Source: an uncultured Bacteroidales bacterium
Lineage (GTDB): Bacteria; Bacteroidota; Bacteroidia; Bacteroidales; Paludibacteraceae
Assembly: GCA_902782665.1 (NCBI GenBank)
Contig: CACZOA010000079.1
Location: 1 to 56,058, forward strand
DNA length: 56,058 nucleotides
Reading direction: 5' to 3'
In this document: one piece after another, positions 23,878 through 53,163 of the stretch
Position numbering within the stretch: the stretch's first letter is position 1
Layout: every line of letters starts with the position of its first letter
Translations under genes and position numbers: made by a program
The notes under the pieces: generated by a model
What the model was told of the DNA's origin: nothing
The model's input: the letters and a program-made list of their open reading frames with translations, nothing else
The model's database searches: none

Positions 23878-24396
23878 TTACTGCTTAGTGAAAGTTGTCT
23901 CTCCAGCACCAGCTTTAATATCAGCATTAGCAGCCTCTGTACCACTTGCCAAAACTGAATTTGCCTTGCAGATAAACAATACCTTCTCAGGGTTTGCCTT
24001 AGCGTCAGACATAGAAGCAGCAGTAACATAACCGTCAGAAGCTACAATAGCATACGACTTATCTGCGTTTGCACTACCGATAGTGATAGAAGCACCTGAG
24101 ACTGTAACTGTAACAGTTGATCCAGTAACGTCAACAATTGACAAAGATGCTCCAGAAATGCCAAGTTTAGCATTTGAAATAGAGTAAGAATCACCTGCTA
24201 CCGCTGTGATGGAAGTCTTTGCTTCACCAGCAGGCTTGTTATTTCCTTGACCCTCGTCATTGTTGTTATTATTGTCGTTGTTGTTCTGCTCCTGCTTTGG
24301 AGTCTCCTCTTCATCCTCATCCTCTCCACAAGATGCGAAGAACAAAGAAGAAGCGATTACTGACATGGCTACAGCCAAATTAAAAATTTTCTTCAT
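23878..24396 (-). CDS. Putative lipoprotein, tandem paralogue 1
   Basis: The 172-residue protein has a lipoprotein signal (SLFFASC, Cys at residue 23) followed by acidic Glu/Asp and an Asn/Gln-rich spacer. The mature part (~62-172) is a beta-rich domain rich in Ser/Thr/Val/Ala that ends with KANPEKVLFICKANSVLASGTE and AGAGETTFTK. The neighbouring lipoprotein shares this domain throughout (AGDSY/AGDTY, LGISGASLSIV/LGITGVSVSIV, AKANPEKVLFIC/AKANPKNVLFVC). The family is not recognised. Acidic residues directly after the Cys are consistent with surface export in Bacteroidetes lipoproteins. A TACGTTTG -7 box lies at 24424-24431. Confidence 0.75.
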   Translation of the reverse strand: MKKIFNLAVAMSVIASSLFFASCGEDEDEEETPKQEQNNNDNNNNNDEGQGNNKPAGEAKTSITAVAGDSYSISNAKLGISGASLSIVDVTGSTVTVTVSGASITIGSANADKSYAIVASDGYVTAASMSDAKANPEKVLFICKANSVLASGTEAANADIKAGAGETTFTKQ

Positions 24397-24423
24397 TTTG
24401 TTATTACTTTTAGTTCAACACTA

Positions 24424-24431
24424 CAAACGTA
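24424..24431 (-). promoter_or_regulatory. Candidate -7 box of lipoprotein gene 1
   Basis: TACGTTTG on the minus strand fits TAnnTTTG, 28 nt before the start. The flank TTTAGTTCAACACTACAAAC is almost the same as that of the paralogue. No -33 match is seen. Confidence 0.4.
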
Positions 24432-24575
24432 CTAATTAATTAAACTATTACATAAGAAAAAGTCTTAATTTTTCTTAAAGCTGATAAAATCCAAACTTAT
24501 AGTAATAAAAACTGAATCAAATGAGCTATTTAATCACATACTATAATAATAAGATAAGTTACTCAAAACTATTTA

Positions 24576-25082
24576 TCAATATAGATAATCCCACTTTTTG
24601 AAAATCGTTTTACTAGAGCCACTTTTAATTTCAGCCATATCTGATTCCGTACCACTCACCAAATAAGACCCATCCTGACAGACAAACAACACATTTTTAG
24701 GATTTGCTTTAGCTTCCGCTCTACTTGTTTCCACATAGCTTTTATCCTTCTCCACATAAACGACACATGACATGAATTCTTCAGAATCACTAATTGTAAT
24801 AGTATTACCTGTAATCGAAAGTGTAATAAAAGAATCCTCAACTTTCACTATCGACACAGAAACGCCTGTAATACCAAGTGCTTCGTTATCAATCACGTAG
24901 GTATCGCCAGCATAAGCTTTTATTGAAGACACTGAAACACCAGGCTGGATGTTGTATGTCTGATCTTTTTCCTCACTGATTATCTGCTCCTTGTTATCTG
25001 TATCTTCATCTTCACAAGAAGTGAGAAAAAGTGGAGAAGCAAACACAGACAAAGCCAAAGACAAATTGAATAATTTCTCCAT
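24576..25082 (-). CDS. Putative lipoprotein, tandem paralogue 2
   Basis: The 168-residue paralogue of the preceding lipoprotein has Cys23 in LFLTSCEDEDTD, followed by acidic residues. It lacks the Asn/Gln repeat spacer and ends with an extra KKWDYLY. Several serines and alanines of copy 1 are replaced by larger or charged residues, so the two have diverged well beyond recent duplication. No domain is recognised. Conserved paired features (single Cys in VLFVCQDG, the SGTE turn) suggest the same fold. The upstream flank also resembles copy 1. Confidence 0.75.
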   Translation of the reverse strand: MEKLFNLSLALSVFASPLFLTSCEDEDTDNKEQIISEEKDQTYNIQPGVSVSSIKAYAGDTYVIDNEALGITGVSVSIVKVEDSFITLSITGNTITISDSEEFMSCVVYVEKDKSYVETSRAEAKANPKNVLFVCQDGSYLVSGTESDMAEIKSGSSKTIFKKWDYLY

Positions 25083-25114: not shown

Positions 25115-25547
25115 GCAGAAACTAAGCTTCCACTTTGATAAAAAGACATTACATTTTCATTAAAACTCACAAAACATTAACAAAAAAGCAAAAATGATAA
25201 AATCAAGACTATTAATTCAGATTTTTAAGACAATCACATGAAAATTCTCGGTCAAATGGACATTTTTGCGTTTTATATGATTGAAATTTACATCATATTT
25301 AATCGATTTTTCCTACTCTAAATGCGTAAAATTATGACTTTCTAAAAAAAAGGCATTTTTTGCCGATTTTTTATCCGATACATCCAACCTACTTGTCATA
25401 TATTCGCAATGTAAACGAAAAACAAATATCTCTAATAACAATAAACAAAAACTAAACTATAAAACTAAAATAACATAAACACATACTTTTTTCAACTGTT
25501 AAGTTATTTAGAACACATACAATAATTATATACTCTAATACTCTAAT

Positions 25548-25780
25548 AACGTAGACTTGAAAAAATTCTATCTTTTCTATCAACGTTAGCTTCGAAAGAA
25601 GCAAGTCCTAATTTCCTTTTACTTTCACATTGTTCGGAAGAACAATGTGAAAGATAGGAAGGGGAAAAGGAAAATTAAAAATGAAAGTCTAGTTGTAAGG
25701 TAATATATGATAACTCAGGTTGATAGGGGTCGAGATGACTGCTGCAACACAAAAAAGAGACGCTATCGCGTCTTTTTTTT
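25548..25780 (+). ncRNA. Candidate structured non-coding RNA
   Basis: Closing stem P1 pairs 25548-25558 with 25685-25694 (10 bp, one bulged G). Inside are a 5-bp hairpin with a GAAA loop (25589-25602) and a perfect 14-bp hairpin with a GGAA loop (25622-25653); both loops are GNRA type. The long hairpin is extended by 25609-25620 with 25665-25677 (12 bp, one bulged A). A different, mutually exclusive or pseudoknotted pairing joins 25572-25581 with 25653-25662 over 10 positions, including two G-U pairs. An intrinsic terminator closes the stretch at 25751-25780. Both flanking genes run on the minus strand, so nothing annotated explains a plus-strand terminator. The 5' end and promoter are not identified. 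It could also be a palindromic repeat element. Confidence 0.5.
25751..25780 (+). terminator. Intrinsic terminator without a matching gene
   Basis: The stem AGACGC/GCGTCT with a TATC loop is flanked by six A and eight T residues, which extend the stem further. It works best on the plus strand, where no coding gene ends. It is symmetrical enough to act on both strands. Confidence 0.8.
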
Positions 25781-25840
25781 ATGTCCATAAGTGAACAATA
25801 AAAGGCAAGGCAAACCCAAACATGGAATCGTATTATCATA

Positions 25841-25870
25841 AAAAAAGAGAGACGCGGAAGCGTCCCTCTT
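25841..25870 (-). terminator. Terminator of the GH5 gene
   Basis: Stem GACGC/GCGTC (25851-25855 with 25860-25864) with a GGAA loop and flanking AGAG/CTCT, then T residues on the minus strand. Confidence 0.8.
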
Positions 25871-25897
25871 CATTAAAATTGCGTCTAGTTAGTATAA

Positions 25898-27799
25898 TTA
25901 TCTTACAACTACCTTGTAAGCTTGATTTCCTACCTTAACCACATAAGTTCCATTCTGCAACTTGACTGATGTCATAAAGTCAGTCGCTTCAGTCTTGGCT
26001 ACCAGTGTTCCCAACATAGTATACGCTTCTATTGCCTTACCCGCCGCACCAAGCACTGCGATACCACCGTCGACAGGGATAATGTTGGCAGCTACCGCGT
26101 CTACATTATCAACAGAAGAATTTCCATCATCAAGTTTCAACATCAAAGAGATGGCGTTTGCTGTGATTGAAAGGATTGCCTTTCCATTGTCAGACAAATA
26201 CTCACCGTCGTTTCCGCTCCAAATGTTTGGCAATGAATTCTTATACTGAGCAGCCTCCAAATCCTTTTTCACAATCGGATTTGTGAACTCATATCCGTTG
26301 ATTATGATCTTATTAACACTGAATGTATACGATGAATCATTAGTATACACCAAATAGCCTAAGTTAGTAAAGCCGTCCTTCTTTGATGCAGGAGACAAAT
26401 CAACATCGATATTTTTTGCTGTGCCAGAAATCTCTTTTGAAACCTCATCCCAACCTGAATACTGGCATTTGAATATCGGATTCTCTTTTGCACCGTTGAC
26501 TGACAGATTAACGATATAACTTGTGATCAACTCAAGTTTTGTCTTTGGAGCAGTCGTGTCAATCTCAATTTCCTGATCGAACGCCTCATTGATAGCCTCT
26601 ACAATATAAGTACGGGCGACACTGTTCGCAGATCTGTTGATTGTGGCAAATCCTTTCGCTGTGCTTAGATGACCATTGTCCCAAAGCACTGGCACAGCTC
26701 CTACACGACGTGCATTCTCACAAAGTGTCTTAGTCCAATAAGCAGTGTATTTGGAATTCTCTGAATCATAAGCAGTCTTATCAACAGTGCCATACTCACC
26801 TACAACAACAGGATAACCCTGTGATGTGAACCAAGTCTTCAGTTTATCAAACTGACCAGACATCGTGCTTTCACTATTTGCACCCTGGCCATAAGTAGTA
26901 CACTTCTTAGAATTTTCCGACCATGCCTCATCACCCCAGCGAGTCACGCCTTCATCTGTGTCGTCACCACAAAGATCCCAAGGAGCGTAGTAGTGGACAG
27001 AAATCATAAGACGATTGCCAGAAACAGATCTGTCAAGGTATTTGTCTTCAGGAATCTTGAATCCTCTTGCCTCAGAAGTCAAATCAATATCAGTGTTCCA
27101 ACCAGGAATCAAAAGCCAACGTTTTGCATTGTTCAAGCTGATAGGACGCACCGTCTCAACAAAAATCTGATTATAATCATTGATATTCTGGTAGTAATTT
27201 GCATTTGGATATGTGCCACCAGTTGACTGCCACTCATAAGTGCCGTCAAACACTTCATTCATGGATTCGAAGATCAAATGCTCATCATAATCCTTGAACA
27301 TTGTGGCGATCTGCTCCCAAAAAGCCTTATACTTAGCCTTGATCTCACTCTGATTGTTGCTGTCACAAAGAAGCCAGCTGCCAGTCACCCCATGATATCC
27401 GTCACCATGTATATTAGTGATTACGTAAAGATCCTCAGCCAACGCCATATCCACTACCTCTTTGACTCTTGCAAGCCAAGCCTCATCAATCTTATAATCA
27501 GGAGCTGATCCGATCTTGTTCAAATAAGAGACTGGAATACGAATAGTGTTGAAGCCACTATTCTTGATCAGTTTTATCAAAGCAGAGGATGTCTTAGGAT
27601 TTCCCCATACGGTCTCACTCGGAGTGCCATTTGAGTTTGCCTCCAATGTGTTGCCTAAGTTCCAACCCGCGCCCATAGCCTCAACCATTTCATACTGGCC
27701 AAGGTCGTCAAACTGATTGTCTGCAAAAACAGACACGGACGTAGAGAGCATTGTCGCACCCAATCCGAAAGTTAAAACATTTTGTAGTCGTTTATCCAT
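25898..27799 (-). CDS. GH5 endoglucanase (subfamily 4-like) with T9SS sorting domain
   Basis: Started at 27799 (MDKRLQNVL) the protein has 633 residues and a signal peptide to about residue 27. An upstream in-frame ATG would add 20 residues before it. The GH5 barrel spans ~33-425: GAGWNLGNTLEA and WGNPKT are GH5_4-type marks, Glu182 in ESMNEVFD is the acid/base, and Glu335 in VVVGEYGT the nucleophile. Known GH5_4 enzymes cut cellulose, mixed-linkage glucan, xyloglucan or xylan. A second beta-rich domain (~440-565, with TNLGYLVYTNDSS) is unrecognised and may bind glycan. The end (~570-633) is a type A T9SS domain (LQNGTYVVKVGNQAYKVVVR). Confidence 0.9.
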   Translation of the reverse strand: MDKRLQNVLTFGLGATMLSTSVSVFADNQFDDLGQYEMVEAMGAGWNLGNTLEANSNGTPSETVWGNPKTSSALIKLIKNSGFNTIRIPVSYLNKIGSAPDYKIDEAWLARVKEVVDMALAEDLYVITNIHGDGYHGVTGSWLLCDSNNQSEIKAKYKAFWEQIATMFKDYDEHLIFESMNEVFDGTYEWQSTGGTYPNANYYQNINDYNQIFVETVRPISLNNAKRWLLIPGWNTDIDLTSEARGFKIPEDKYLDRSVSGNRLMISVHYYAPWDLCGDDTDEGVTRWGDEAWSENSKKCTTYGQGANSESTMSGQFDKLKTWFTSQGYPVVVGEYGTVDKTAYDSENSKYTAYWTKTLCENARRVGAVPVLWDNGHLSTAKGFATINRSANSVARTYIVEAINEAFDQEIEIDTTAPKTKLELITSYIVNLSVNGAKENPIFKCQYSGWDEVSKEISGTAKNIDVDLSPASKKDGFTNLGYLVYTNDSSYTFSVNKIIINGYEFTNPIVKKDLEAAQYKNSLPNIWSGNDGEYLSDNGKAILSITANAISLMLKLDDGNSSVDNVDAVAANIIPVDGGIAVLGAAGKAIEAYTMLGTLVAKTEATDFMTSVKLQNGTYVVKVGNQAYKVVVR

Positions 27800-53092: not shown

Positions 53093-53163
53093 TGTCTTGT
53101 GGTGTAATGGTAGCACATCAGTTTCTGGCACTGCTTGTCAGGGTTCGAGTCCTTGCAGGACAA
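53093..53163 (+). tRNA. tRNA-Gln (anticodon CTG)
   Basis: The 7-bp acceptor stem TGTCTTG pairs with CAGGACA, with the weak U1-A72 pair typical of glutamine tRNAs. The D arm is GTGT/GCAC. The anticodon arm has loop TTCTGGC, giving CTG at positions 34-36, with a mismatch at the outermost stem pair. The T arm CAGGG/CCTTG encloses TTCGAGT. The CCA end is not encoded. It reads CAG codons, has its own promoter and a terminator directly after it. No other tRNA is nearby. Confidence 0.88.

Follow-up and report, generated by a model that had tools for sequence, protein, structure and literature searches.

The question raised by this locus is whether the interval between a lipoprotein-like gene and a GH5 cellulase gene, in the 56,058-nt stretch of DNA analysed here (the window), encodes an RNA of its own and, if it does, what that RNA acts on. 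A sequence-only reading of the window had proposed an undescribed, trans-acting or regulatory structured RNA at this position. Comparative data make it nearly certain that positions 25399-25779 of the plus strand are a real, free-standing and undescribed structured RNA gene. The RNA is predicted to be ~365 nt long, its start being placed by a Bacteroidetes-like -7 promoter box and the conservation of this box, and the likely transcript start lies ~135 nt before the start given in the sequence-only reading. Compared with the -7 consensus TAnnTTTG, as given in an excerpt of PMC7366714, the box is exact in two of the seven homologues (G004 and G007) and has one mismatch in the other five; no -33 box was clearly recognisable upstream of the gene. 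A short dyad (GGCA-TTTTT-TGCC, 25352-25364) lies within a conserved T-rich block ~35-47 nt upstream of the -7 box and may be a regulator site. The parts of the gene and its neighbours are given below, where C23 sRNA is a second, predicted RNA, encoded on contig C23 of the same genome, and CUCUAAUA is the match to its seed.

24576-25082, minus strand: neighbouring lipoprotein-like gene, 168 aa, no Pfam match
25399-25408, plus strand: putative -7 promoter box, TATATTCGCA; TATATT[CT]GCA in 7/7 homologues
25411-25524, plus strand: AU-rich leader, 110-130 nt, start approximate; holds site A and one CUCUAAUA copy (25430)
25451-25496, plus strand: site A, complementary to C23 sRNA; computed seed duplex of -32.7 kcal/mol in the window
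25525-25558, plus strand: 5' strand of the closing helix; pairs with 25685-25711
25533-25556, plus strand: site B, CUCUAAUACUCUAAUAACGUAGAC, within the 5' strand of the closing helix; invariant in 7/7 homologues
25589-25602, plus strand: hairpin 1; GAAA loop in 6/7 homologues, one double change in the MAFFT columns (G007)
25606-25671, plus strand: terminal arm, including the 14-bp hairpin 25622-25653; double changes, one at the hairpin base and two at the tip
25685-25711, plus strand: 3' strand of the closing helix; 25 pairs in total in the computed fold
25719-25748, plus strand: tail hairpin; 94.7% of cells paired, one double change
25752-25779, plus strand: intrinsic terminator, 12 bp, 4-nt loop and U run; conserved in 7/7 homologues
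25898-27799, minus strand: neighbouring GH5 cellulase gene; Pfam Cellulase, 1.6e-57

The folded domain of ~190 nt is rod-like and consists of the closing helix, a large internal bubble and the terminal arm. A folding energy of -79.2 kcal/mol was computed for 25540-25790 (z = -7.2, 0 of 200 shuffles as good), and the G007 and G004 homologues showed the same fold plan, with z values of -7.7 and -7.6; the minus strand of the same stretch also folds well (z = -5.95). All of the elements described in the sequence-only reading were recovered. The closing helix 25548-25558/25685-25694 is present with one bulged base (25551), and the fold extends outward from it to 25525/25711; the extension helix is the outer arm 25606-25620/25657-25671, present in the sequence; and the strong plus-strand terminator is found at 25752-25779. 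Being close to symmetric, with T runs on the two strands, this terminator could also serve the minus strand, on which the pattern scan for terminators had itself placed it. Both of the hairpins described as carrying GNRA loops are present, that at 25622-25653 with 14 perfect pairs, and the GAAA loop of the smaller one is kept in six homologues, but the GGAA loop is of GNRA type in just three of the seven.

The predicted structure is well kept among the homologues (98.5% of 594 cells paired), and both partners had changed in 5 of its 85 pairs, where shuffles averaged 1.4; none of 500 shuffles reached 5, and slid controls gave 0 to 2. One of these double changes lies in hairpin 1, three in the long hairpin and one in the tail hairpin; each of them is contributed by one sequence, in most cases the most divergent. 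All 25 pairs of the closing helix are invariant in the seven homologues, so that covariation says nothing about this helix. The sequence-only reading had also described an alternative pairing, 25572-25581 with 25653-25662, and suggested that the two pairings could form a switch. The alternative helix does have 10 of 10 standard pairs in the window, but it showed no covariation: without a double change it did no better than shuffles, and pairing fails in 4 of its 70 cells. Hence, an internal switch is not supported; compensatory changes occur in the predicted fold and not in the alternative helix. Between the window and G007 the core is identical at 214 of 225 positions (95%), the leader at 82 of 102 and the upstream flank at 66 of 104, and the third codon positions of the GH5 gene are 49.7% identical.

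The window RNA was found in seven of the nine genomes of Candidatus Scybalocola, a genus placed in the Paludibacteraceae (taxonomy and a partial text of PMC8957277), and in none of the 349 other genomes of the family. The homologue set comprises the window (G000), G001, G002, G003, G004, G006 and G007; none was found in G005 or G008. A BLAST search of 25400-25800 over 61 genomes returned near-full-length homologues in the window's own genome and in six of the eight others of the genus, and among the matches listed from the other genomes only short ones were seen, the best of them (E = 1.3e-6) in the terminator region. A covariance model built on the core detected the same number in 358 family genomes, all in the genus and with one full match each, under stricter filters with which weak distant matches could be missed; weak reverse-strand matches to the long hairpin appeared in six genomes. 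A mobile or phage origin was discarded: there was no blastn match in phage or plasmid records and no exact 20-mer in viral contigs, and each genome has a single full match.

The GH5 gene adjoins the RNA on the 3' side in six of the seven homologue loci; in G007 it is inverted and lies on the other side of the RNA. On the 5' side, the RNA directly adjoins lipoprotein-like genes in the window, G004 and G006, from which it is separated by one plus-strand gene in G001, G002 and G003. Two tandem lipoprotein-like genes of one family, without a Pfam match, occupy 23878-25082 of the window, and their number and neighbours vary among species. A gene judged from its protein to be DNA cytosine methyltransferase-like was seen between GH5 and the RNA in G007 (L033, -1551 to -547 relative to the RNA core). 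As the sequence-only reading had stated, the neighbouring genes do not account for the RNA, since both run on the minus strand and the RNA has its own terminator. A riboswitch or cis-acting leader was rejected on the orientation of these neighbours in the window and the conservation of the terminator in all seven homologues. A small protein gene was likewise rejected: no ORF is common to the seven homologues, and indels in the tail shift the reading frame. An ATG run of 24 aa occurs in five of them, with lengths of 19 and 47 in G004 and 15 in G007; minus-strand frames within the RNA gene reach at most 17 aa, and a minus-strand frame of 74-98 aa overlaps the gene in G003 and G006 only.

At the gathering cut-off of Rfam 15, the sole match in the whole window was a tRNA at 53093-53163, and within 25300-25900 the best match up to E = 10, on the minus strand, scored 30.6 bits where the cut-off is 55. 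The RNA agrees with its earlier description as undescribed and structured, being conserved in seven of nine genomes of the genus and belonging to no Rfam family at cut-off; covariance searching gave homologues in 7 of the 358 family genomes. Bacteroidales-1 RNA (RF01693) has a promoter and a terminator. It resembles the window RNA in being a non-coding RNA of Bacteroidales and differs in its locus, which is separate from the window RNA in 9/9 genomes. The Rfam description suggests that RF01693 is a 6S RNA of Bacteroidales. A ~190-nt folded part with a closing helix, a large internal bubble and a terminal arm would suit a second, rod-like 6S RNA that binds RNA polymerase; we consider this extremely unlikely. 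Searching 25300-25900 up to E = 10 gave no match to RF00013, RF01685 or RF01693, the first two stayed below their cut-offs in all nine genomes, and the window RNA was not found in G005 or in the other genera searched. With no match of the three families at the window RNA, 6S RNA was set aside. The RF01693 locus (L068, 1501-1690) lies in G000 beside a gene judged from its protein to be RsmI-like methyltransferase.

One important question is then what a free-standing RNA of this kind might act on. The best match of the window leader elsewhere in its own genome was on contig C23 (E = 1.4e-5; 42 query bases at 86%). On the minus strand of this contig lies a predicted sRNA gene of ~110 nt, antisense to the leader of the window RNA, with a promoter-like layout (TTTG-N19-TAATTTTGC), a strong hairpin plus T run at its end, and the pairing stretch AUGUGUUUAUGUUAUUAGAGUUUUAAGUUUA. 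This unit is nearly invariant in the seven of nine genus genomes in which it was found (none was found in G005 or G007), and its flanks vary. Searching the 358 family genomes placed C23 sRNA in the genus only; G007 and six genomes of other genera gave only short weak matches, and no Rfam match was obtained up to E = 0.5. Both RNAs occur in six of the nine genomes and neither in G005 (91% complete), and a single one was found in G007 (the window RNA; 78% complete) and in G008 (the sRNA; 64% complete). This co-occurrence fits a joint function. In G007 a 29-base stretch like the sRNA in the sense orientation, at 90%, is located ~380 bases past the terminator of the window-RNA homologue (G007:C34:21498-21526; L048, 1501-1529), and no promoter or terminator was recognised there. 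The C23 sRNA locus of G000 is 99-100% identical to those of G001 and G002 and 91-92% to those of G003 and G006, unlike the window RNA (contig C79), which is nearest to G003 (98%) and G006 (96%); these discordant relatives would be explained by recombination or by a mis-binned contig in the metagenome-assembled genome.

The duplex computed between the sRNA seed and site A reached -32.7 kcal/mol in the window, G003 and G006, -29.1 in G001 and G002, -40.3 in G004 and -36.2 in G007, so that the pairing is conserved in 7/7 homologues at -29.1 to -40.3 kcal/mol; one seed stretch, invariant in the seven sRNAs found, was used for all of them. Target shuffles gave z = -6.9 for the sRNA-leader duplex (0/500), and sRNA shuffles gave z = -7.1 to -7.4 with the leaders of the window, G004 and G007 (0/400 each). 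When 2726 sub-windows on both strands of the 56-kb window were paired with the seed, the best four partners (-32.7, -24.0, -24.0 and -22.5) all started at 25398-25521 of the plus strand, the next values being -22.2 and below. The G004 leader forms 30 uninterrupted pairs; it deviates from a perfect complement at three positions, each an A-to-G change by which a wobble pair is retained. Because the sRNA does not vary along the paired stretch, two-sided covariation is not observable for this RNA-RNA duplex. The seed match CUCUAAUA occurs in three to five copies per homologue, in the leader and the closing strand, against shuffle means of 0.013-0.049 (0/1000), and the three plus-strand copies of the 56-kb window all lie in the window RNA.

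Site B forms 16 pairs with the sRNA, two of them G-U, over 25541-25556, and this pairing is weaker than that of the leader. The invariant CUCUAAUAACGUAGAC of this site, in the closing helix, gave z = -3.9 (1/500) with target shuffles and z = -3.3 (3/400) with sRNA shuffles. The mean unpaired probability was 0.73 for site A and 0.22 for site B, which is mostly buried in the closing helix. With full-length sRNA, two of seven runs (the G006 sRNA, and the G008 sRNA with the window RNA) placed the best duplex on the site-B side and not in the leader. A computed joint fold of both RNAs preferred the leader duplex and left most of the closing helix intact, which makes invasion by the sRNA at site B speculative. 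Neither the conserved leader nor the second RNA, which is complementary to it, figured in the sequence-only reading; both point to RNA-RNA control instead of an internal switch, and the trans-acting role proposed there is plausible.

Possible mRNA partners of the sRNA were sought in the same genomes. The exact 16-mer ACTCTAATAACATAAA occurs at 11 places in the nine genus genomes, namely the sRNA locus (7) and a site upstream of a gene for a secreted esterase with a CBM6 domain (Pfam) (4). This esterase site lies 20 nt before the ATG in G000, G003, G006 and G008, and in G007 it has one mismatch and lies 11 nt before the ATG. The esterase start region paired with the sRNA seed at -30.0 in G000 (0/500 shuffles), with a z value of -6.4 that is after the fact, because the gene was picked by search. 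In seven genomes the values range from -22.1 to -30.9, the weakest, in G001 and G002 (-22.1), being at about the level of the best chance sites in the window; the 35 start regions of window genes gave a median of -11.2 and a best value of -17.4. The leader (at -32.7) and the start region of the esterase (at -30.0) therefore pair with one stretch of the sRNA, whose use on the mRNA is predicted. Within the window, the GH5 and CotH start regions showed no pairing with the sRNA (z = -0.3 and -0.4), and that of the lipoprotein gene, at -14.5 the fourth best of the 35, was at background level.

Lesser candidates are a CotH-family gene in G002 (-26.5) and a set of CBM6 genes (-18.1 to -19.6) that, judged from their proteins, are presumably xylanase-like. 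Secreted CBM6 enzyme genes (L156, L160, L161 and G000:C39:15390-15420) share a 5' UTR such as TCTAAACTCTAAATAAAAAAACACAATG, whose complementarity to the sRNA seed is moderate. The idea of a wide regulon marked by CTCTAA ahead of the ATG was discarded, since motif counts in G000 were not above controls: CTCTAA-N3-22-ATGAA had 36 occurrences in the genome and its reversed control 62, and ACTCTAATAACATAAA with up to two mismatches had 9, its control 11. In the absence of enrichment of the CTCTAA motif, the esterase alone remains, followed with less support by the CotH gene of G002 and the xylanase-like CBM6 genes.

The best single explanation, to which we give about an even chance on the sequence comparisons, is that the window RNA is a target-mimic sponge for C23 sRNA. 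The sRNA would probably repress the secreted esterase-CBM6 mRNA by pairing at its translation start region. The leader of the window RNA would imitate an esterase-type start region, but with AUA at the position of AUG, and the transcribed RNA would bind the sRNA through the CUCUAAUA seed matches in its leader and closing strand; the titrated sRNA would then release the esterase, and perhaps other fibre-degrading mRNAs too. The folded domain may stabilise the RNA or bind a protein. In the weakest step of this scheme, the sRNA may invade the closing helix at site B, by which the domain would be opened or destroyed. Conservation is higher in the folded core than in the leader, a fact that a sponge alone does not explain and that was counted against it.

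This conservation is what favours a regulated effector, in which the sRNA would bind site A, invade site B and open the domain, so that the sRNA controls the RNA and the domain carries the function, for example protein binding. No part of the RNA is better conserved than the core, the 25 closing pairs do not vary, and site B, in the 5' strand of the closing helix, can form its 16 pairs with the sRNA in all seven homologues; yet the computed joint fold retains the closing helix and uses the leader, and the domain has no recognised partner or output, which leaves this reading possible but unlikely. It is slightly less probable that both roles are combined in a three-RNA circuit, where the sRNA that blocks the esterase would be antagonised by an RNA acting as multi-site sponge and as conformational device, with docking at the leader, invasion of the closing helix and a switched state of the domain.

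The complementarity might instead have no role, as a relic of shared ancestry between two loci copied in opposite sense, the window RNA being a structured regulatory RNA of unrelated function. The 42 query bases at 86% likeness are what a copied segment would also give, and the sRNA stretch holds no changes that could test the pairing. However, species in which half of the third positions have changed still keep a pairing of -29 to -40 kcal/mol, the G004 changes allow wobble pairs, there is a second, separate site as well as repeated seed matches, and the motif also stands at a third locus, the esterase start region; we regard a relic as a degree more doubtful still. That CUCUAAUA(AC) is a protein-binding RNA motif, with the window RNA as a protein decoy and the antisense sRNA as competitor, appears very unlikely: a short motif is indeed repeated in a mostly unpaired leader, but conserved identity to the sRNA complement spans ~30 nt, far beyond such a motif.

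Target-mimic sponges that titrate sRNAs in bacteria are named in an excerpt of PMC7366714, and an RNA antagonist of the sRNA PinT is reported in part of PMC12721325. Like these sponges, the window RNA is a separate RNA with several mRNA-like sites complementary to an sRNA seed; unlike the known ones it is ~365 nt long, has its own gene, combines the sites with a large folded domain of high conservation and is known from sequence alone. No sRNA sponge of Bacteroidota was present among the literature matches listed, which were open-licence papers. In Bacteroides thetaiotaomicron, the sRNAs GibS and FopS pair near the start codons of carbohydrate-use mRNAs and repress them, as outlined in sections of PMC7366714 and PMC11697453, and C23 sRNA is similarly predicted to pair at the start region of a carbohydrate-use gene. 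The action of C23 sRNA on the esterase, and its titration by the window RNA, are proposed by analogy with these systems. The targets differ, being susC and BT_0771/BT_3893 for GibS and FopS and a secreted esterase, by prediction, for C23 sRNA. The antagonist differs too: FopS is antagonised by the protein RbpB (PMC11697453, in part), whereas the antagonist of C23 sRNA would be an RNA.

The structured RNA is a candidate for a new family with homologues at hand, and the predicted duplexes are exact enough for simple tests. The control of polysaccharide use by sRNAs in Bacteroidota is a recent finding, according to portions of PMC7366714 and PMC11697453. If the sponge reading is true, a gene-encoded antagonist of such an sRNA, lying beside a cellulase gene, would add an RNA layer to fibre digestion in these uncultured bacteria of the herbivore gut.
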